Shown one piece after another: positions 21,034 to 50,066 of a stretch of DNA of 64,000 bases (within the stretch, counting starts at the first letter, position 1; the number at the start of each line of letters is the position of its first letter). Below the pieces are notes generated by a model. That model did no database searches. It was not told the origin of the DNA and saw nothing but the letters and a program-made list of their open reading frames with translations. The DNA comes from Haloterrigena alkaliphila. Lineage in GTDB: Archaea; Halobacteriota; Halobacteria; Halobacteriales; Natrialbaceae. The translations under genes were made by a program, and so were the position numbers. Location: NCBI RefSeq assembly GCF_017352155.2, contig NZ_CP071462.1, positions 1 to 64,000 of the forward strand. Reading direction: 5' to 3'.

Positions 21034-22989
21034 TCACCGCATGGGGACGTCGGCGCTCCGGTCGGAATCGTCGTTCGGGGCCTCGTCGTCGCTCGAATCC
21101 GCGACTGTCTCCGACTCCGCGTCCGGTTCGGAACCGCCCGAGTCAGTGATCGATTCGACCCCGCGGAACTCGAACCGGGCGCCGCCGGTCTCGCTCTCGG
21201 CGACGTGCACCGACCAATTGTGGGCAGCAGCGATCTCCTCGACGATGCTTAGTCCCAGTCCGGTTCCGTTCTCACCGGTCGTATACCCGCTCTCGAGAAC
21301 CTGCTCGCGGCGACAGGCCGGAATACCGATCCCGTCGTCGGCGACGAAGAACCCCTCGATCGAGCCGTCACCATCGTCGTCGATCGTTCCCACCGTGATC
21401 TCGAGGTCGGTCCCGTCTCCCGCCTCGTTCCCGTGTGGTACGGCGTTGCGCTGAGTGTGCGAAGCGGGGCTCGTAGAACCATGTTCTACGGCGTCCTGCT
21501 GAGTGTGCGAAGCGGGGCTCGTAGAACCATGTTCTACGGCGTCTTCAGAACCGCCAGGTTCTGAATGGCTCGTCGAGCCGTGTTCGACGGCGTTGCGAAA
21601 GAGATTCTCGAGCGCCCGTTGCAGGCGTTCGGGATCCGCGAGGATCGTCGCGTCGCCGTCGATCCCGATCGACGCCCCGCCGGTCTCGACGCCGTTCCAG
21701 GCGTGCCGGGCGACGCGCTCGAGCGGGACCGGTTCCGGATCGGCCACGTCGGCTCCCTCGCGGGCGAGCGTGAGCACGTCGTCGATGATCGTCTCCATGC
21801 GCTCGTGTGACTGTGCAACCTCCTCGAGGTGCGCGTCGTCGTCGGTCTCGCGAGCCATCTCGAGGTAGCCGTCGGCGACGTTCAACGGGTTGCGCAGGTC
21901 GTGAGAGACGAGACTGGCGAACCGCTGGAGACGGGAGTTCTGGCGCTCGAGTTGCTCCTCGTGGCGCTTGCGTTCGGTGACGTCGCGGGCGACGAGCAGC
22001 CAGCCGACGCGCCGATCGCGATCGTCGTCGATCGGCGTCGCCGTGATCCGAACGTGAGTCGCACCGACCGAGAGTTCGGTGGCCGTCTCCGCCCGTCCGT
22101 TCGTGACGGCCTCGTACCAGTCCCGGAGCCCCGTCTCGTCGAACAGCGACGGGAACGAGCGTCCGACGAGCGATTCGGTTTCGACATCGACCGATGCGAG
22201 CAGCCGTCGGCCCGCCGGATTGACGTCGATGAGGCGATCGTCCGTATCGACGACGAAGATGCCGTCGGCGACGGTGTCGAGGACTCGATTGCGGGCGATC
22301 GGCATGAGATCGAGGAGCCGGTACCGGCCGATCGCGACCGCGAACAGGACGCTCGAGAGGATCCCGCCGACCGGCATCGGGTCGATCGCGGTGAGATCTG
22401 CCGCGTACACCGCGTGTGCGATCCAGGGCGCCAGCGCACCGCCGAGCAGCGCGAGGCTCTGTCCGCGATACACCGCGCGGGAACGGTAGACGAACGCCAG
22501 TACCATCGCCGTCGTGACGACGTTTATCCCGTACGCGTAGACGGTATAAACCAGGGCCCCGGGCCCGAACTCGTACTCGATCGGGAGCGGGCCCGCTTCG
22601 GCCGGTTGCAGCGTCGTATAAATGAGGTCCGCCGGGTTGGTGAACGAGAGGATCACCACCGCTACGGGCGGGATCGCGAGCGCGCCAACGATCCGCGGCC
22701 GGAGCAGGTGTTCGCGGCCCGTGTACTCGAGGACGAAGACGAGTTTCAGCATCGAGACGAAGGTGATACCGACGGACGTCGTTCGGAGGGAAAGCGAGGC
22801 GACCGTCGCACTCTCGGTACTCAGGAGGAGAAGAACGGCTCCGTTCCAGATCGCCATCGCCCCCATCATCAGGAGCAACGCCAGCGCGCCGGTTCGCTCC
22901 CGGTACTGCCAGAGCATGACGATGGCCCCCACGGCAGTGAGCGTCGCGAGCGCGTAGATCGTCTGAGTACTCAGCAGGGAATACGCCAT
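21034..22989 (-). CDS. 7TM-PAS sensor histidine kinase with repeat insertion in the ATPase domain
   Basis: Membrane sensor kinase of 651 aa. Residues about 1-225 form a seven-helix HisKA_7TM-type sensor. A PAS domain covers about 230-350 (RVLDTVADGIFVVDTDDRLIDVNPAG). HisKA has the H-box SLVSHDLRNPL near 372, then HATPase_c with N-box LFRNAVEHG, G1 box DDGIGIP and G2 box GTGLGLSI. Directly after the N-box about 50 residues are inserted, made of repeated AVEHGSTSPASHTQ units. The C-terminal 50 residues are Ser/Asp/Glu-rich. An in-frame TTG lies at 23013, but the ATG at 22989 has a TATA-like box at 25-30 nt. Last of three tandem paralogues. Confidence 0.88.
   Translation of the reverse strand: MAYSLLSTQTIYALATLTAVGAIVMLWQYRERTGALALLLMMGAMAIWNGAVLLLLSTESATVASLSLRTTSVGITFVSMLKLVFVLEYTGREHLLRPRIVGALAIPPVAVVILSFTNPADLIYTTLQPAEAGPLPIEYEFGPGALVYTVYAYGINVVTTAMVLAFVYRSRAVYRGQSLALLGGALAPWIAHAVYAADLTAIDPMPVGGILSSVLFAVAIGRYRLLDLMPIARNRVLDTVADGIFVVDTDDRLIDVNPAGRRLLASVDVETESLVGRSFPSLFDETGLRDWYEAVTNGRAETATELSVGATHVRITATPIDDDRDRRVGWLLVARDVTERKRHEEQLERQNSRLQRFASLVSHDLRNPLNVADGYLEMARETDDDAHLEEVAQSHERMETIIDDVLTLAREGADVADPEPVPLERVARHAWNGVETGGASIGIDGDATILADPERLQRALENLFRNAVEHGSTSHSEPGGSEDAVEHGSTSPASHTQQDAVEHGSTSPASHTQRNAVPHGNEAGDGTDLEITVGTIDDDGDGSIEGFFVADDGIGIPACRREQVLESGYTTGENGTGLGLSIVEEIAAAHNWSVHVAESETGGARFEFRGVESITDSGGSEPDAESETVADSSDDEAPNDDSDRSADVPMR
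21441..21587 (-). repeat. Intragenic hairpin-bearing tandem repeat (2 x 48 bp + 51 bp)
   Basis: Three head-to-tail units: 21441-21488 and 21489-21536 (48 bp each, differing only near the left end) and 21537-21587 (51 bp, divergent middle). All keep the kinase frame and encode 16-17 aa variants of DAVEHGSTSPASHTQQ. The first two contain the inverted repeat GTAGAAC-CAT-GTTCTAC (21473-21489 and 21521-21537). The third contains AGAACC/GGTTCT and GGCTCG/CGAGCC hairpins. The encoded AVEHGS copies the adjacent N-box, so the unit probably arose from this gene by duplication. Confidence 0.85.
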
Positions 22990-23013
22990 CGTCTGTAACG
23001 CAGTCGGCACCAA

Positions 23014-23021
23014 GTAATAGA
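23014..23021 (-). promoter_or_regulatory. TATA-like box of the kinase gene 21034-22989
   Basis: Minus-strand TCTATTAC is 25-32 nt before the ATG at 22989. It implies that this third tandem kinase has its own leaderless promoter. Confidence 0.4.
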
Positions 23022-23094
23022 CTGCGGCCGAAAACGACAGTAGTCCGATCGATCGTCGCCCTCGAGCGGTGCGAAGGGAGCGGCGGAGAACTGA

Positions 23095-24840
23095 CTACGA
23101 GCGCCTCGACGGCGGATCGAGCGTCTCGGACGAAAGTGTCGAATCATCGATATCTGGTTCGACCCCATCGGCGCGTTCGACGCCGGTGAACTCGAACCGC
23201 GCACCGCCGGCCTCGCTCTCGGTTGCGGTGACCGACCAGCCGTGTGCCGCGGCGATCTGCTGGACGATACTCAACCCGAATCCGGTTCCCTCGTCACCGG
23301 TCGAGTAGCCGTCTTCGAAGACGCGTTCGCGCTGATCCGCCGGGATACCGTTACCGTCGTCCGCGACGGAAAACGCGATCGTGGAACGGTCCGGATCGTC
23401 CTCCACACTCACCGAGACCACGAGCGAATGGTCCTCGTCTTCGGTTCCGTGTTCCACCGAATTGCGAAAGAGGTTCTCGAACATCCGTTGCAGCCGATCG
23501 GAGTCCGCGAGAAGCCGCGCGCTCGAGTCGATCTCGAGGCTCCCATCGACCGTCTCGACGCCCGCCCAGGCCCGCTCGGCGACGGTCGCCAGATCGATCG
23601 GTTCCGGATCGGTCACGTCGGCTCCCTCGCGGGCGAGCGCGAGCACGTCGTCGATGATCGTCTCCATGCGCTCGTGGGCCTGCGCGACCTCCTCGAGGTA
23701 CTCCTCGTCGTCGTCGGTCTCGCGGGCCATCTCGAGGTAGCCGTCGGCGACGGTCAACGGATTGCGCAGGTCGTGGGAGACGAGGTCCGCGAATTGCTCG
23801 AGGCGCTCGTTCTGGCGCTCGAGTTGTTCCTCGCGGCGTTTGCGCTCGGTGATATCGCGGACGACGAACAGCCAGCCGAGGTGGCGGTCGCGACCGTCGT
23901 CGATCGGCGTCATCCGGACGAGGAAGTACTCGCCGTCGACCGCGAGTTCGCGTTCGGCCATCTCGGGAGTCGCGGTCAGCGACTGGTACTCCTCCTGCAG
24001 CTCCGGCCAGTCGGCGAACAACGAGTCGACGCCGGCGCCGATCGGCGACTCGTCGACGTCCGTCAGCAGGGCCCGTCCGACGGGATTCGCGTCGATCACC
24101 CGGTCACGATCGTCGACGACGAAGATACCGTCCGTGACGGTGTCGAGGACGCGATCGCGGGCGATCGGCGTGATGTCGGCCAGTCGGTAGCGGACGATCG
24201 CGATCGCGTACAGTACGCTGGCTCCGAGGAAGCCGATCGGCGAGGTGTCCAGTTCGTACGGGCCGAAGAGGTAGACGGCGTTGGCGACCCAGGCCATGAC
24301 GGTGCCGGTGAGCAACGCGGCGCTTTGCCCGCGGTATAGTGTCCGCGACCGGTACAGGAACCCGAGCATCAGTACCGTTGCCACGGATAGAACGACGTAG
24401 GAGTACCCGGTGTGGAGCCAGAACGCGATCCCCCAGTCGACGAGGCCGTCCTCCCGAAGGGTATAGAAGAGTTCGTTGGGGTTGACAAGCACGAACAGGA
24501 CGGCGAGAATCGGTTCGATCGAGAGCGCAGCGAGGATCGACGGCGTGACGAACCGCTCTCGACCGGTGTACTCGAGCGTAAAGACGAGCGTCATCATCGT
24601 CGCCCCTCCGGCACCGAGGAACACGGCGGCGAAACACACGAGCGCGAGTAGTCCCGGTTCGAGGTTCGTCACGACGAACAGGGAACCGGCCCACAGGCCC
24701 GTAGACAGGTTCAGGGCACACAGCGGTAGTACGGCTCGGCGGTCTCGATACCGAGACAGTACGCCGACGAGGATGAGGCTATTGACGGCCGCGACCGCGT
24801 AGATCACCTGTATGGGATCGAGTCCCGAACCCGTTGGCAT
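23095..24840 (-). CDS. 7TM-PAS sensor histidine kinase
   Basis: Kinase of 581 aa, paralogous to both neighbours. It has a seven-TM N-terminal sensor (about residues 5-225), a PAS domain (RVLDTVTDGIFVVDDRDRVIDANP, about 228-345), H-box DLVSHDLRNPL, N-box LFRNSVEHG, G1 DDGNGIP and G2 GTGFGLSI. Its N-box is followed by a short TEDEDHS loop with no repeat insertion, so it is a useful reference for the unit inserted in the downstream paralogue. The signal sensed and the cognate regulator are unknown; no receiver gene is adjacent. Confidence 0.9.
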   Translation of the reverse strand: MPTGSGLDPIQVIYAVAAVNSLILVGVLSRYRDRRAVLPLCALNLSTGLWAGSLFVVTNLEPGLLALVCFAAVFLGAGGATMMTLVFTLEYTGRERFVTPSILAALSIEPILAVLFVLVNPNELFYTLREDGLVDWGIAFWLHTGYSYVVLSVATVLMLGFLYRSRTLYRGQSAALLTGTVMAWVANAVYLFGPYELDTSPIGFLGASVLYAIAIVRYRLADITPIARDRVLDTVTDGIFVVDDRDRVIDANPVGRALLTDVDESPIGAGVDSLFADWPELQEEYQSLTATPEMAERELAVDGEYFLVRMTPIDDGRDRHLGWLFVVRDITERKRREEQLERQNERLEQFADLVSHDLRNPLTVADGYLEMARETDDDEEYLEEVAQAHERMETIIDDVLALAREGADVTDPEPIDLATVAERAWAGVETVDGSLEIDSSARLLADSDRLQRMFENLFRNSVEHGTEDEDHSLVVSVSVEDDPDRSTIAFSVADDGNGIPADQRERVFEDGYSTGDEGTGFGLSIVQQIAAAHGWSVTATESEAGGARFEFTGVERADGVEPDIDDSTLSSETLDPPSRRS

Positions 24841-24862
24841 CGTCCGTACTCGAGTGGGAACG

Positions 24863-24870
24863 ACATAAAG
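24863..24870 (-). promoter_or_regulatory. TATA box of the kinase gene 23095-24840
   Basis: Minus-strand CTTTATGT lies 23-30 nt before the ATG at 24840. The preceding CAGTGCA resembles the CAGCA before the next kinase's box. Confidence 0.5.
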
Positions 24871-24935
24871 TGCACTGGCCGTTTCGCGAGTCTGGCCCGA
24901 CGAGTCGGGCGACGACCGCCGCGTCGGGTCGCCGT

Positions 24936-26699
24936 TCAGTCAGTAGTCGCCGTGGTCGATTCCGTCCGAGCGGCCGCGTCGACGGTCTCGATACCGGTGA
25001 ACTCGAACCGAGCGCCTCCGTCCTCGCTCTCGCAGGCGTCGACGGTCCACCCGTGAGCGGTCGAAATCTCTTCGACGATGCTCAGTCCGAAGCCCGTTCC
25101 CTCCGCGTCGGTCGTGTACCCCTCTTCGAAGACGCGCTCGTGGTCGTCGGGCAACCCGCGGCCGTCGTCCGCGACGTAGAACCCGTAGTTCGGACTCGTT
25201 CCGATGACGCCGACCGAGACGGTCATGGGCGGCTCCCGCGAGTCGTCCGCTCCCCTCGGCTCGTCGACTCCCTCGGGATCGTCGACTGGACGGCCGTGTT
25301 CGATCGAATTTCGAAACAGGTTCTCGAGGAGCCGAAGCAATCGCGTCCCGTCGCCGAGGAGGGTCGTCGTTCCCTCGATCGACAGCGCTGCGTCGCCGGT
25401 GTCGACGTTCGCCCAGGCCTGCTCGGCCAGCGACCCCAGGTCGACCGGCTCCGGATCGGTCACCGCCTCCCCCTCGCGTGCGAGCGCGAGGACGTCGTCG
25501 ATGATCGTTTCCATACGCTCGTGAGCCCGCTCGACTTCCTCCAGGTGATCCGTGTCTCCGGTCTCCCGGGCCAGATCGACGTAGCCGTCGGCGACGGTCA
25601 GCGGATTGCGCAGGTCGTGGGAGACGAGGTCCGCGAACCGCTCGAGGCGCTTGTTCTGGCGCTTCAGCTTCGTCTCGCGGCGTTTGCGCTCGGTGATATC
25701 GCGGACGATGAACAGCCAGCCGACGTGGCGATCGCGGCCGTCCTCGATCGGCGTCACCTGCACGTGGAAGTGGCCGCCCATGAGCGCCAGTTCGCGTTCG
25801 GCTTCGACCGGCGCTTCGGTCAGGTCGGAATACTCCTCGCGCAACTCTGGTATGTCGGCGAACAGCGCGTCGACGCCGGTACCGATCGGCGAGTCGTCGA
25901 GTTCCGCGAGCAGTTCCCTCCCGACCGGGTTACAGTCGATAACCCGATCCTCCCTGTCGACGACGAAGACGGCGTCCGAGACGGTGTCGAGCACGCGATC
26001 TCGCGCGATCGGGACGACGTCGACCAGCTGGTAGCGGAAGATCGCGACCGTGAGCAACGCGCCGCTGACGAGGTAGCCGATCGGCATCGGATCGAACGGG
26101 AACATCTCGGTAAGATACGCCAGGTTCGCGAGCGCCGGAACGATCGTGGCCCCAAGTAAGGCGGCGGCCTGCCCGCGGTAGACCGATCGGGACCGATACA
26201 GGAACTCGAGGACCAGCACGGACGCGGTCACCAGGAGGAGATACGAGTAGAGCGTGTGAACGGCGGCCGCGGGTCCCCAGGTCACTTCGAGACCGGTGAC
26301 GGCCGCCGCATTCGGTTCGAACGCCTCGATGAACACGTTTCGTGGATTCGTGAACGCGAGTCCGACGACGACGATCGGTTCGATCGCCAGCGCGGCGATC
26401 GTCCGCCGGGTGACGAGGTGTTCGCGACCGGTGTACTCGACGAGGAACACGAACAGCGTCGCGATACTGGTCGTGATGCCGATAAACAGTACCCGGATCA
26501 TGAGCCGCGACACCGCGAAACTGTCGGCGACGCTGGCGACGAACAGCGACCCCGAGTACAGCGCCGTCGCGAACAGGCAGATGGCCAGCGGGATCGTTCC
26601 ACGTCTGTCGCGGTGTCGCCAGACGACGACACCGAGGGCGACCCCCAGGAGGGTCGCCAGCCCGTAGCCCCCCACGATCACACCGTGGCCAATTGCCAT
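24936..26699 (-). CDS. 7TM-PAS sensor histidine kinase
   Basis: Kinase of 587 aa, first gene of the tandem set by transcription order. The layout is again 7TM sensor, PAS (RVLDTVSDAVFVVDREDRVID), H-box DLVSHDLRNPL, N-box LFRNSIEHG, G1 DDGRGLP and G2 GTGFGLSI. A 25-residue acidic loop (RPVDDPEGVDEPRGADDSRE) follows the N-box, the same spot where the paralogue at 21034-22989 has its repeats, so this is a length-tolerant loop. The ATG at 26699 fits a TATA box 22-31 nt upstream; an ORF start 53 codons further upstream overlaps the neighbouring promoter region and looks non-coding. Confidence 0.9.
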   Translation of the reverse strand: MAIGHGVIVGGYGLATLLGVALGVVVWRHRDRRGTIPLAICLFATALYSGSLFVASVADSFAVSRLMIRVLFIGITTSIATLFVFLVEYTGREHLVTRRTIAALAIEPIVVVGLAFTNPRNVFIEAFEPNAAAVTGLEVTWGPAAAVHTLYSYLLLVTASVLVLEFLYRSRSVYRGQAAALLGATIVPALANLAYLTEMFPFDPMPIGYLVSGALLTVAIFRYQLVDVVPIARDRVLDTVSDAVFVVDREDRVIDCNPVGRELLAELDDSPIGTGVDALFADIPELREEYSDLTEAPVEAERELALMGGHFHVQVTPIEDGRDRHVGWLFIVRDITERKRRETKLKRQNKRLERFADLVSHDLRNPLTVADGYVDLARETGDTDHLEEVERAHERMETIIDDVLALAREGEAVTDPEPVDLGSLAEQAWANVDTGDAALSIEGTTTLLGDGTRLLRLLENLFRNSIEHGRPVDDPEGVDEPRGADDSREPPMTVSVGVIGTSPNYGFYVADDGRGLPDDHERVFEEGYTTDAEGTGFGLSIVEEISTAHGWTVDACESEDGGARFEFTGIETVDAAARTESTTATTD

Positions 26700-47216: not shown

Positions 47217-47698
47217 GGGGCATCACCGACCGATATCGGCCTCGAGACGCGACTCCGGTCCCGCGAGAGCGGATGTACGCCCTCGAGCGGGCCGTCCCGT
47301 TTCGGTTCGGTTCCCGACCAGCACCGTCGCGCAGTCGTCGGAATACGCCGCGCTGCGAGACTGCTCATCTGTCAGCGCCCTACACGACTGGCGTCGAAAA
47401 GCATTTCACATCGTTCACAGAATCTGAGAATCGGGTCGCATATGCGTCGGGAAGAGGCCTAATACGCTCGGATTTACGACACAATATTTGAGCGTAATGT
47501 GATATATACGACGCAGAAGTATGTGTCAGAAGTGTACGGTATCACCATCGAACGAGTGGGCTGCAGGGCGCTGCGCTGTAAGCCGACCGTATCGTGAATC
47601 GGTATCGCATCGCCCGGGATCCTCGTCAAACACCGGACCGGACCTCGCGGAGTCTGTGGACCGTAACTAAAGGAGTCTGTGGTAGTTGGAGAAACGAA
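47217..47698. other. Intergenic region between divergent glycan genes
   Basis: About 480 bp. The portion 47395-47540 is A/T-rich. The box AACTAAAGG (47665-47673) about 30 nt before the ATG 47699, and GGAG (47688-47691), probably belong to the downstream gene. No gene or repeat is supported. Confidence 0.4.
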
Positions 47699-48937
47699 AT
47701 GGTCGACCGACGGTCGGTGTTGAAGCTCGGCGGTGGGGCCGCCGCGCTGGGGGTAACGGGGGGAGTGATCGCGCTCGTCGCGCGCAACGGCGATGACGGG
47801 GTCGGCGACGGCGAGGCGTTCGAATCGATCGACATCGACTACGGGGAGTACGACAGCCCCGAGGCGATCTATCGCGTCTGGACGGGGTATCCCCGCCGGT
47901 TCTCGTTCGTCGACGACGGAGCGTACACGGGAGAGACGGCGTTGCGGTGTGCGATTCCGGCGAACGCGAGCGACGGAAGCAACGCGATGTTCTGGTTTCC
48001 CGACAACGGATACGACCAACCGCGCGAGGTCACCCAGCGAGCGATGGTCCGGCTGAGCGACGACTGGACGATGGCCGACGGAGACGTCTGCCGGTTCTGG
48101 TCCGCGGGGCTGAACACGGCGGCCGGCCCGCACGGCTCCGGCGGTCGCGGCAGGCCGTCGGGCGACGACGGGTGGTCGAGCATGTTCGCCGTGACGGAGA
48201 GGGAGACCGACAGCGACGCACTGTACAATCTCAGCGCGTACACGTACCACATGGATCAGGACGACGCGAGCGGCGAGTTCGAGGTCATCGACGCGCCGGT
48301 CCCCGCCGGGAAGTGGTTCCGATTCGCGACGTCCGCCCGGATGAACACGGTCTCGGACGGAGACGCGGAACCCGACGGCGAGGTCCGGTGCTGGCTGAAC
48401 GGGGACCTGGTCTACGAGCGGACCGACTTCCGCTGGACGACGACCGAGACACAGGCGATCGAGTACGCCGGGCCGCTGGTTCGCTACGGCGGGGGCGAGA
48501 CCGCGCCGACCGATCTGGCCGTCTTCTACGACGATCATCGACTCCGGGGAAACGGCGCCGCCGACGGATCGGCCCGCGACCCGGACCCGTTCGTCGCGGA
48601 TCCGTCCGAGATGGACGCCTACGAGAGTCGGATCACCGTCGCGACCGACGAGGAGACGACGTACCGGCTCTACGTTGACGGCTATGCGGTGCACACCCAG
48701 TGGAGCAACGTCGACGGCCACGAGGCCTTCCCCAACGAGACGGTCGACGTTTCGCTGGCCGGCAACACCGAGACCGGCTACGTGACGGTCGAAGCGACCG
48801 CCGAGCCGGATACCGCCGACGGCTACCTCTTCGACGGCGAACTCCTCGCCCTCGAGACGGACGCCGAACTCGCGGAGCTGTGGGTTTCCGGCCAGCGGGT
48901 CGATCCCGACGAGTATCCGTCCGCTCCCGACGAGTGA
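47699..48937 (+). CDS. Exported polysaccharide-lyase/lectin-like protein, paralogue 1
   Basis: Secreted protein of 412 aa. The N-terminus MVDRRSVLKLGGGAAALGV has a twin-arginine (RRSVLK) Tat signal. Residues about 40-290 are a ConA-like beta-sandwich of polysaccharide-lyase-14-like type: LSAYTYHMDQDDASGEFEVI, W/RFATSARMNT and EVRCWLNGDLVYERTDFRWTT. The remaining 110 residues form a beta module ending ELWVSGQRVDPDEYPS that recurs in the paralogue at 51634-53718. No catalytic residues are proven. Two further paralogues lie in the locus. The stop codon is inside a tandem duplication. Confidence 0.75.
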   Translation: MVDRRSVLKLGGGAAALGVTGGVIALVARNGDDGVGDGEAFESIDIDYGEYDSPEAIYRVWTGYPRRFSFVDDGAYTGETALRCAIPANASDGSNAMFWFPDNGYDQPREVTQRAMVRLSDDWTMADGDVCRFWSAGLNTAAGPHGSGGRGRPSGDDGWSSMFAVTERETDSDALYNLSAYTYHMDQDDASGEFEVIDAPVPAGKWFRFATSARMNTVSDGDAEPDGEVRCWLNGDLVYERTDFRWTTTETQAIEYAGPLVRYGGGETAPTDLAVFYDDHRLRGNGAADGSARDPDPFVADPSEMDAYESRITVATDEETTYRLYVDGYAVHTQWSNVDGHEAFPNETVDVSLAGNTETGYVTVEATAEPDTADGYLFDGELLALETDAELAELWVSGQRVDPDEYPSAPDE

Positions 48938-48993
48938 GGGAACGCCGCGCACCGGTCCACCCCGACGAGTGAGGGAAAGCCGCGCGCCGTCCA
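48925..48993. repeat. 34-35-bp tandem duplication carrying the stop codon
   Basis: Two consecutive units, 48925-48959 and 48960-48993, share CCCGACGAGTGAGGGAA and CCGCGCxCCG. The first includes the last codons and the TGA stop of the upstream gene; the second copies them after the stop. It lies in the gap before the convergent FemAB gene. Confidence 0.85.
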
Positions 48994-49004
48994 CTCCGAC
49001 CGAC

Positions 49005-50066
49005 TCAGAGCGACTTCTCCACGTACTTGTCTCGTCCGAACTGGTACATCGGCCACGCCAGCCGGGAGTACCCCTTCTCGACCTTGAAGACGGGGACTGC
49101 CGTCCCGCCGTACTTGTGTTTGAATCGGAAGACGGAGTTCGAGAAGTGCGAGCCGGTCTTCCCGAAGTTGTACTGGTCGTACCCCCGGTCGATCCCCCAG
49201 TTGATCGCGCGCTCGTGGAGGAGTTCGGAGGGGTAGTACTCGTAGTCGTCCGCGTCCGGAATCGCCGACAGCCAGTGGTGCAACACGCCGCCCTCCTCGT
49301 CGAGCAGATAGACGTATCGCCCGATTTCACGCCCTTCGACGATCGCCCTGAAGACGCGGATTCGGTCCTGCAGGTGGTCGGTCAGCGCCTCGAAGAACGC
49401 CTTCGGGAGCGGCGAGCCGTCGACGCGCGCGATATTCTCGACGTACCAGTCGTAGGTCGTCTCGAGGTCCTCGCCCAGCGGATCGATCTCGATCCGGTAC
49501 TCCTGTTCGTTGCCCTTCCGGACGTCCCGTCGGCGACCCTTGTCCATTCCCTCGAGGATGGCGTCCCAGCCCTCACGCAGGTCGATCAGGAACAGACACG
49601 AGTCGAACGTCGGCTCGTACCCCCGCGTCTGGAGGTACTGCCCGTACCGAATGTACTCGAGGTCGTACGTCTCGATGGCGTGGTTGACGACGCCGCGGCC
49701 GGCGGTCGCCTCGAGCGTATCGAACAGCAGGTCGAGCGAGTCGGCCTCGTCAGTGAGGACGACCGGGCCGCCGAAGCCGACCGGGATCGACACCAGTTGC
49801 TCGAGCGGCGGTGCGATGGGGAGCGTGTCGCTGATCGGGTCGGGAATCGGGAGGTCGACGGCGAAGTTCGGCATGATCGCGACCGGATTGGTCCCCTTCT
49901 CGACGACGACGTGGTGGCCGTCGTGGTCGAAGGCGTCCTCGATCGCTCGGATCCAGCCGTACCGATGGTAGACGGTTCCCCGGTCGGACTGGGTGACGAC
50001 GTGGTTCCACTGGTTCTCGTTGATCGGTTCGATGCTTCGGTACAGGGTCGGATCGAGTGATGACAC
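49005..50066 (-). CDS. FemAB/BioF2-like GNAT acyltransferase 1
   Basis: Predicted transferase of 353 aa with two GNAT-like halves of the FemAB/BioF2_C type. Blocks include QWNHVVTQSDRGTVYHRYGW, KGRRRDVRKGNEQEYRIEI, DEEGGVLHHWLSAIPDADDY and DRGYDQYNFGKTGSHFSNSV. In bacteria FemAB proteins add amino acids from aminoacyl-tRNA to peptidoglycan, and relatives act in exopolysaccharide loci. Archaea lack peptidoglycan, so here it probably modifies an amino sugar (inference). It is downstream of a second family member at 50158-51213, 91 nt apart on the same strand. Confidence 0.8.
   Translation of the reverse strand: MSSLDPTLYRSIEPINENQWNHVVTQSDRGTVYHRYGWIRAIEDAFDHDGHHVVVEKGTNPVAIMPNFAVDLPIPDPISDTLPIAPPLEQLVSIPVGFGGPVVLTDEADSLDLLFDTLEATAGRGVVNHAIETYDLEYIRYGQYLQTRGYEPTFDSCLFLIDLREGWDAILEGMDKGRRRDVRKGNEQEYRIEIDPLGEDLETTYDWYVENIARVDGSPLPKAFFEALTDHLQDRIRVFRAIVEGREIGRYVYLLDEEGGVLHHWLSAIPDADDYEYYPSELLHERAINWGIDRGYDQYNFGKTGSHFSNSVFRFKHKYGGTAVPVFKVEKGYSRLAWPMYQFGRDKYVEKSL

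Follow-up and report, generated by a model that had tools for sequence, protein, structure and literature searches.

A family of very small, probably mobile double-hairpin repeats of haloarchaea, found in frame in histidine kinase genes and in unrelated genes

Mobile palindromes that lie in frame in protein genes are known from a few bacteria. The Rickettsia palindromic elements (RPEs), about 100-150 nt in length, are small palindromic mobile repeats that occur in frame in unrelated protein genes and also in non-coding DNA. REP/REPIN elements with their RAYT, and REPs tagged with GTAG or CGTC, are short imperfect palindromes with paired hairpins that are placed intergenically and sometimes intragenically, and the CGTC REPs have no known dedicated transposase (PMC3733652, PMC3116915, PMC8266576). 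The terminal-only PATEs of Haloquadratum are described as IS605-derived elements of 52 bp with near-terminal palindromes and a 4-5 bp target, which produce no target duplication (PMC3119063). PARCELs occur in membrane-targeted ORFs and encode amphipathic repeats of 25 residues (PMC2996958).

The repeat described here was found as an array of three units in a histidine kinase gene of the window, that is, the whole 64,000-nt stretch of DNA that was analysed. The kinase was assigned by Pfam (HisKA_7TM, E = 7e-46; HATPase_c, 3e-17; HisKA, 2e-14; PAS_4, 3e-11), and the features are as follows.

21034-22989, minus strand: host kinase gene, HisKA_7TM-PAS-HisKA-HATPase_c, 651 aa (ORF and Pfam)
21589-21597, minus strand: insertion context, N-box codons CGC AAC GCC directly 5′ of unit 1 (ACGCC/GTCGA; from the sequence)
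21538-21588, minus strand: unit 1, 51-nt variant (family model R1, 25.5 bits; fold z -3.27), made up of hairpin 1 (21572-21588), GAGC, an alternative hairpin 2 (21544-21565) and GACGCC
21490-21537, minus strand: unit 2, canonical 48 nt (R1, 71.5 bits, E 6e-17), made up of hairpin 1 (21521-21537), GAGC (21517-21520), hairpin 2 (21495-21516) and ACGCC (21490-21494)
21442-21489, minus strand: unit 3, 48 nt, tandem near-identical copy of unit 2 (R1, 41.2 bits; direct repeat)
21431-21450, minus strand: N-box sequence copy CGCAACGCCGTACCACACGG at the far end of the array (repeat search, 85% identity to 21578-21597)
23095-24840, minus strand: paralogous kinase (control), N-box loop without a unit (ORF; no R1 match)
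24936-26699, minus strand: paralogous kinase, N-box loop without a unit (ORF; no R1 match)

The array occupies 21442-21588 on the minus strand in the N-box loop of the kinase, with units of 51, 48 and 48 nt, and the translated N-box region reads LFRNAVEHGSTSHSEPGGSED, AVEHGSTSPASHTQQD, AVEHGSTSPASHTQRN and AVPHG in succession. Three in-frame units of these lengths had been noticed in the first-pass annotation, and they were recovered by inspection of the sequence, by the covariance model R1 and by Tandem Repeats Finder (21439-21543, period 48, 94% matches, score 189, the top score of the 64-kb window). Since R1 gave the units 71.5, 41.2 and 25.5 bits and no other place in the 64 kb more than 16.0, the array is not a chance match. 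The palindrome GTAGAAC-CAT-GTTCTAC was found twice, as annotated, and the second hairpin of the 51-nt unit proved longer than had been given, with 9 bp (TTCAGAACC-TGGC-GGTTCTGAA). Hairpin 2 of unit 3 is degenerate in its 3′ arm (AGCGCA), and the tail of this unit, CGCAACGCC, restores the codons of the N-box residues RNA. The GTAG with which window units start is just one of several GTN variants of the first stem.

Three adjacent paralogous HisKA_7TM kinases lie at 21034-26699. The two paralogues had been annotated as lacking the unit in the loop, in agreement with R1, and their loops read VEHGTEDED... (23095-24840) and IEHGRPVDDPEG... (24936-26699). The third kinase of the trio carries an unrelated 18-nt tandem duplication (25253-25287; DDPEGVDEPRG), likewise in the N-box loop, so this loop tolerates length change by other means as well. 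No orthologue of the array-bearing kinase with more than 52% identity was found in the same-genus genomes, and the gene therefore looks like a lineage-specific duplicate or acquisition. In an AlphaFold model (window kinase and 32 other sequences), the array corresponded to fragment residues 139-188, which had pLDDT values under 50 and lay after the N-box helix (117-135) and ahead of the next strand (194-201), while the core was well predicted and matched known histidine kinases; the array peptide is thus predicted to be a disordered loop. Other repeats of the window are a 35-nt tandem repeat (2.4 copies, 48917-49000) at the ends of the convergent ORFs 47594-48937 (plus strand) and 49005-50066 (minus strand), and a 21-nt tandem repeat, CGGGATTGAGGTACCGATCGG, in nearly four copies (1804-1899) between two plus-strand genes.

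The canonical unit consists of hairpin 1 (7 bp with a 3-nt loop), GAGC, hairpin 2 (6 bp with a 10-nt loop) and ACGCC, and the element is about 45-60 nt, typically 48 nt, in size. The left flank is ACGCC, the first stem starts with GTN, GCN or GGA, the linker is GAGC, and the loop of hairpin 2 is conserved as TCGC..CTC, usually TCGCAnRCTC. The first 17 nt are almost always palindromic while their letters vary (GTCGAGC..GCTCGAC, GTGGAAC..GTTCCAC, GTAGAAC..GTTCTAC, GTTGAGC..GCTCAAC). In sense, the unit encodes a short hydrophilic linker of 16-17 residues, VEHGSTSPxSxxxxDA. In non-kinase hosts, the corresponding peptides are VEQSST, AELGSA, VEPGST and similar, which makes the earlier description of the units as re-encoding the kinase's own N-box misleading.

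The structure of the element is under strong constraint. Forty-seven units were aligned without gaps; in this alignment, 93.1% of cells were paired vs 82.0% in shuffles, and 104 cells were changed on both sides vs 42.2 in shuffles. The two best covarying stem-1 pairs of the kinase-type unit link wobble positions (Val with Ser, Glu with Gly), so the encoded peptide cannot explain these two pairs; alignment columns 3 and 15, the Val and Ser wobbles at which both changes are synonymous, were CG in 20 units, GC in 18, AU in 4 and UA in 2. Between adjacent units within arrays, 47 compensated vs 9 one-sided changes were counted in stem 1, and 49 vs 18 in stem 2. Among 23 distinct non-kinase units, Watson-Crick pairs made up 285 of 299 stem positions, whereas shuffles averaged 228 and reached 245 at most; these units include compensations that alter amino acids (GCGGAAC..GTTCCGC, AExxSA). 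For 98 distinct matches from another collection, in an alignment that was fitted to the family model and leans towards it, 204 cells were doubly changed and 14 were G-U, and this scarcity of G-U hints at pairing in DNA rather than RNA. Single units showed no folding advantage over shuffled sequences (the canonical unit of the window had a z of about -0.8); the folding energy being unremarkable, the structural claim is carried entirely by covariation.

A search of the same genome placed the unit also outside kinases, once in a methyltransferase (VGKVQ[DAVEQSSTSPDSQARQ]DAVERA) and once antisense in another gene. According to Pfam, non-kinase hosts comprise rhodanese and metallo-beta-lactamase proteins (several positions), GltX, tetrapyrrole methylase, HAD hydrolase, a VLRF1-type release factor, DUF7089, a receiver/PAS protein and ornithine cyclodeaminase (OCD), and whole-genome scans added aconitase, glutamate synthase, LeuRS, a calcineurin-like phosphoesterase and a UPF0047 gene. 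In-frame units were found in TP_methylase, GltX, LeuRS, glutamate synthase, aconitase, rhodanese/MBL, HAD, OCD and the VLRF1-type release factor, and antisense units in UPF0047, aconitase and metallophosphoesterase; intergenic copies are present as well.

Three insertions of this genome were compared with related sequences. The UPF0047 (YjbQ-type) gene (C1:3179031-3179519) is broken by an in-frame TGA that comes from an antisense 48-nt unit; removal of exactly 48 nt restored a complete ORF, and the gene is uninterrupted in five same-genus genomes at 85-89% identity. In a tetrapyrrole methylase gene (C1:2492701-2492750), one in-frame unit is present, and the site is empty in all five same-genus genomes. 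The same site carries one unit, a 48 + 51 pair or three units in other genera, and these varied counts point to recurrent insertion or exchange of alleles. The 5′ arm of hairpin 1 equals the native sequence just downstream in 4 of 5 filled TP_methylase sites, as it might if hairpin 1 were copied from the target, but most other hosts lack this likeness. In aconitase (C1:3120232-3120281), a 48-nt unit lies antisense yet in frame (GVSASEASGGSSDESD) and is absent from 16 relatives, four of them of the same genus at 92-93% identity. All three insertions lie at CC/GTCG or a close variant, and same-genus relatives lack all three units wherever the gene was recovered. What was inserted is a discrete 48-nt unit, in both orientations.

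The UPF0047 gene also contains a second species-specific in-frame extra of 45 nt (L065:1234-1280, on C1), CGYTAKRVELRSTLL, which is missing from the five same-genus relatives; it includes a 9-bp hairpin (GCGTTGAGC-TTC-GCTCAACGC), is related to hairpin 1 in reverse and scored 23 bits with the family model.

With a threshold of E <= 0.001 per genome and one genome per species, the canonical-unit model matched 285 of 391 haloarchaeal genomes and 71 of 86 genera, where lone weak matches in some genomes may be due to chance. The first-pass annotation's mention of similar units in other haloarchaeal kinases is thus supported. The exact core pattern (hairpin 2 and linker) was found in 70 stretches among 84,980 species genomes (257 Gb), all of them of Halobacteria, and had no match in the viral contigs of IMG/VR. 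By a pattern search allowing mismatches in 61 relatives, the unit was detected in 16 genomes, and the reversed control pattern gave 0 matches. Of 105 distinct units examined, 68 lie in kinase-like genes as assigned by a simple motif rule, which misses some kinases. Weaker matches form a wider family of like layout with different stem sequences; many of its members, such as GGAAGACGC-TTC-GCGTCTTCC-GAGC-CCTCGT-loop-ACGAGG-AC, lie between genes, and a wider model gave 12, 19, 10 and 39 members in four genomes, with rough E-values. In one intergenic family member (L148:656-712), the 3′ arm of hairpin 2 (CGAGGAC) joins a tRNA-like T-arm sequence, GCGGGGATTCGAACCCCGC; ARAGORN called a tRNA-Ala nearby and not the T-arm-like sequence itself.

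Y1 transposases (PF01797) are present in 267 of the 391 genomes, and their presence does not track the number of units. Genomes G001, G002, G004 and G143 hold 9-11 units each and lack PF01797, and about a third of the unit-rich genomes (counted by hand), the same as in the whole sample, are without Y1. No unit hairpins were found beside the Y1 genes at 20 Y1 loci, nor near the Y1 loci of the window's own genome. A Y1 mobiliser of the IS200/IS605 or RAYT kind is therefore not supported.

Of 100 array starts, 73 directly follow the exact letters ACGCC, with which the unit itself also ends. Since the right end repeats ACGCC, a short target duplication is indistinguishable from element sequence, and because the ends resemble the target, the boundaries between them cannot be fixed to the base. 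Kinases are probably a hot spot because the N-box codons AAC GCC/GTC GAG match the insertion context (ACGCC/G), and because this gene family has many members per genome, with a length-tolerant loop downstream of the N-box. The window kinase having no same-genus orthologue above 52%, copy number was counted in another orthologous kinase, which carries no unit in this genome, one in G003, three in G001, three in G002 and four in G004; the G001 and G002 orthologues, each with three units, are 96.6% identical. In this kinase, copy number changes between species, but not fast. Fixed copy number in all relatives, or a lack of hairpins conserved in the units of other kinases, had been named as the outcome that would speak against an amplified hairpin unit; counts of 0, 1, 3, 3 and 4 and covarying stems were found instead.

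On this evidence, the units most probably belong to a family of non-autonomous mobile elements of haloarchaea, very small in size and with the layout hairpin 1-GAGC-hairpin 2-ACGCC. This reading is supported by the structure and its covariation, by exact 48-nt insertion as compared with empty sites, by the variety of hosts, by the restriction to one clade and by the change of copy number between species. Each insertion would add one complete unit directly 3′ of an ACGCC-like site, and insertions would also occur antisense and intergenically. Within a coding sequence, units of 48 or 51 nt would preserve the frame and be read as a short hydrophilic linker, and selection would for this reason keep them where a surface loop tolerates the insert; the peptide itself may be merely tolerated. 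With ACGCC at its right end, each unit would provide a new site, so that more units could be added head to tail, and ordinary duplication could also be a route of array growth. The hairpins may work as structures of single-stranded DNA, in the manner of the single-strand transposition of REP/RAYT and IS605 elements, or they may prompt replicative template switching between ACGCC microhomologies. A broader claim is conceivable, though somewhat less likely than not: that haloarchaea carry their own minimal class of mobile DNA in the form of a 48-nt hairpin pair, and that this pair moves by some route that does not involve the known Y1 (IS200/IS605/RAYT) transposases. By virtue of its length, frame and insertion context it would be read as a benign acidic linker, and would so be a continuing source of in-frame peptide insertions in housekeeping enzymes and sensor kinases across an archaeal class.

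The first-pass annotation had favoured copying of the kinase's own N-box. Under such local amplification, slippage or unequal recombination would multiply the N-box codons at their original position and gene conversion would carry the copies from kinase to kinase, which agrees with the near identity and tandem arrangement of units 2 and 3, with the share of kinase-like hosts among the examined units and with the N-box sequence copy flanking the array. However, exact 48-nt units occur in both orientations in unrelated genes that have no N-box, and in intergenic DNA; kinases without units have no counterpart of hairpin 2 and its conserved loop; and the stems covary. Local amplification is highly improbable as the explanation of the family and is ruled out as its sole cause by the non-kinase insertions, although it may contribute to the growth of arrays after seeding. 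The annotation had also proposed a phase-like tuner, in which kinase activity would depend on the number of units and changes in that number would serve regulation. The units are always in frame, the loop comes after the N-box helix of the ATP-binding domain and the orthologues differ in copy number, as such a tuner would have it; yet two orthologues at 96.6% identity have equal numbers, an on/off switch is incompatible with lengths in multiples of 3, the prediction makes the loop disordered and places it away from the well-predicted core, and the element also resides in tRNA synthetases, aconitase, a cobalamin-pathway-type methylase and intergenic DNA, most non-kinase placements being unconnected to signalling. 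A tuner is accordingly improbable, and it is the annotation's other suggestion, a selfish intragenic repeat, that accords with conserved, covarying hairpins and mobility into unrelated genes.

Strong structural covariation would also be expected if the double hairpin were kept for a role in mRNA, such as processing, stability or protein binding. We give this RNA-level reading little credence, as the unit is placed antisense (UPF0047, aconitase, metallophosphoesterase) as well as in sense, RNA under selection should tolerate more G-U pairs than the 14 seen against 204 doubly changed cells, and no match for the unit was found among the RNA families of Rfam. As a special case of the mobile-element reading, the unit could be a terminal-only PATE: what is left of a haloarchaeal IS605-type transposon after loss of its core, dependent for movement on the TnpA of that transposon acting in trans. 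Size and layout are like those of the 52-bp Haloquadratum PATEs (PMC3119063), but an association with Y1 genes is absent, unit hairpins flank 0 of 20 Y1 loci, and the search gave no full-length parent element; we consider this origin unlikely, though by no means negligible. A simple tandem repeat (slippage VNTR) was rejected, as the unit is found at many unrelated loci and in both orientations, and a MITE was rejected, as the unit ends (GTNGARC... and ...AGGACGCC) are not mutual inverted repeats.

If the units are mobile elements, as we favour, they would explain the repeated VEHGSTSP stretches of haloarchaeal kinases, seen in many genomes, which should not be taken for conserved functional motifs or N-box duplications. 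The covarying stems may be read as a record of recognition by the mobiliser, and movement should be testable in culturable haloarchaea, since the insertions leave empty sites in close relatives. In the open-access literature searched, neither the peptide nor a REP-like haloarchaeal element was found described, and as far as that literature shows, a class-wide archaeal counterpart of in-frame palindromes has gone undescribed.

By comparison with known systems, the unit shares with PARCELs tandem coding repeats, dyad-symmetric DNA and dispersal by mobility (PMC2996958), and identity with them was rejected on its 16-17 hydrophilic residues, predicted to be disordered, in enzymes and kinases. Like REP elements, it is built of short palindromes with paired hairpins and is close to them in size; unlike them, it has a GAGC linker, a conserved hairpin-2 loop, an archaeal host and no Y1 association, and its strongest matches are mainly in-frame copies. 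The hallmark GTAG or CGTC tag of REPs at the hairpin end was not found on the unit, and membership of REP/RAYT was rejected on this ground and for want of an associated Y1 (RAYT) transposase. Terminal-only PATEs are the closest haloarchaeal elements by size (PMC3119063): like them, the unit is haloarchaeal and transposase-free, is about 50 bp as is the shortest PATE form, and has near-terminal palindromes and what may be a defined upstream target; unlike them, it yielded no IS605-type parent with its ends at the 20 Y1 loci, and conserved in-frame residence in genes is a feature of the unit that was not found described there for PATEs. In behaviour, RPEs are by analogy the closest known system, the unit likewise being a small palindromic repeat inserted in frame in unrelated functional genes, with empty orthologous sites in relatives, and present in non-coding DNA. 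It differs from these bacterial elements in its 48 nt, two hairpins, tandem arrays, restriction to haloarchaea and hot spot at the kinase N-box, and is best filed as an archaeal variant of protein-coding REP/RPE-like palindromic elements.
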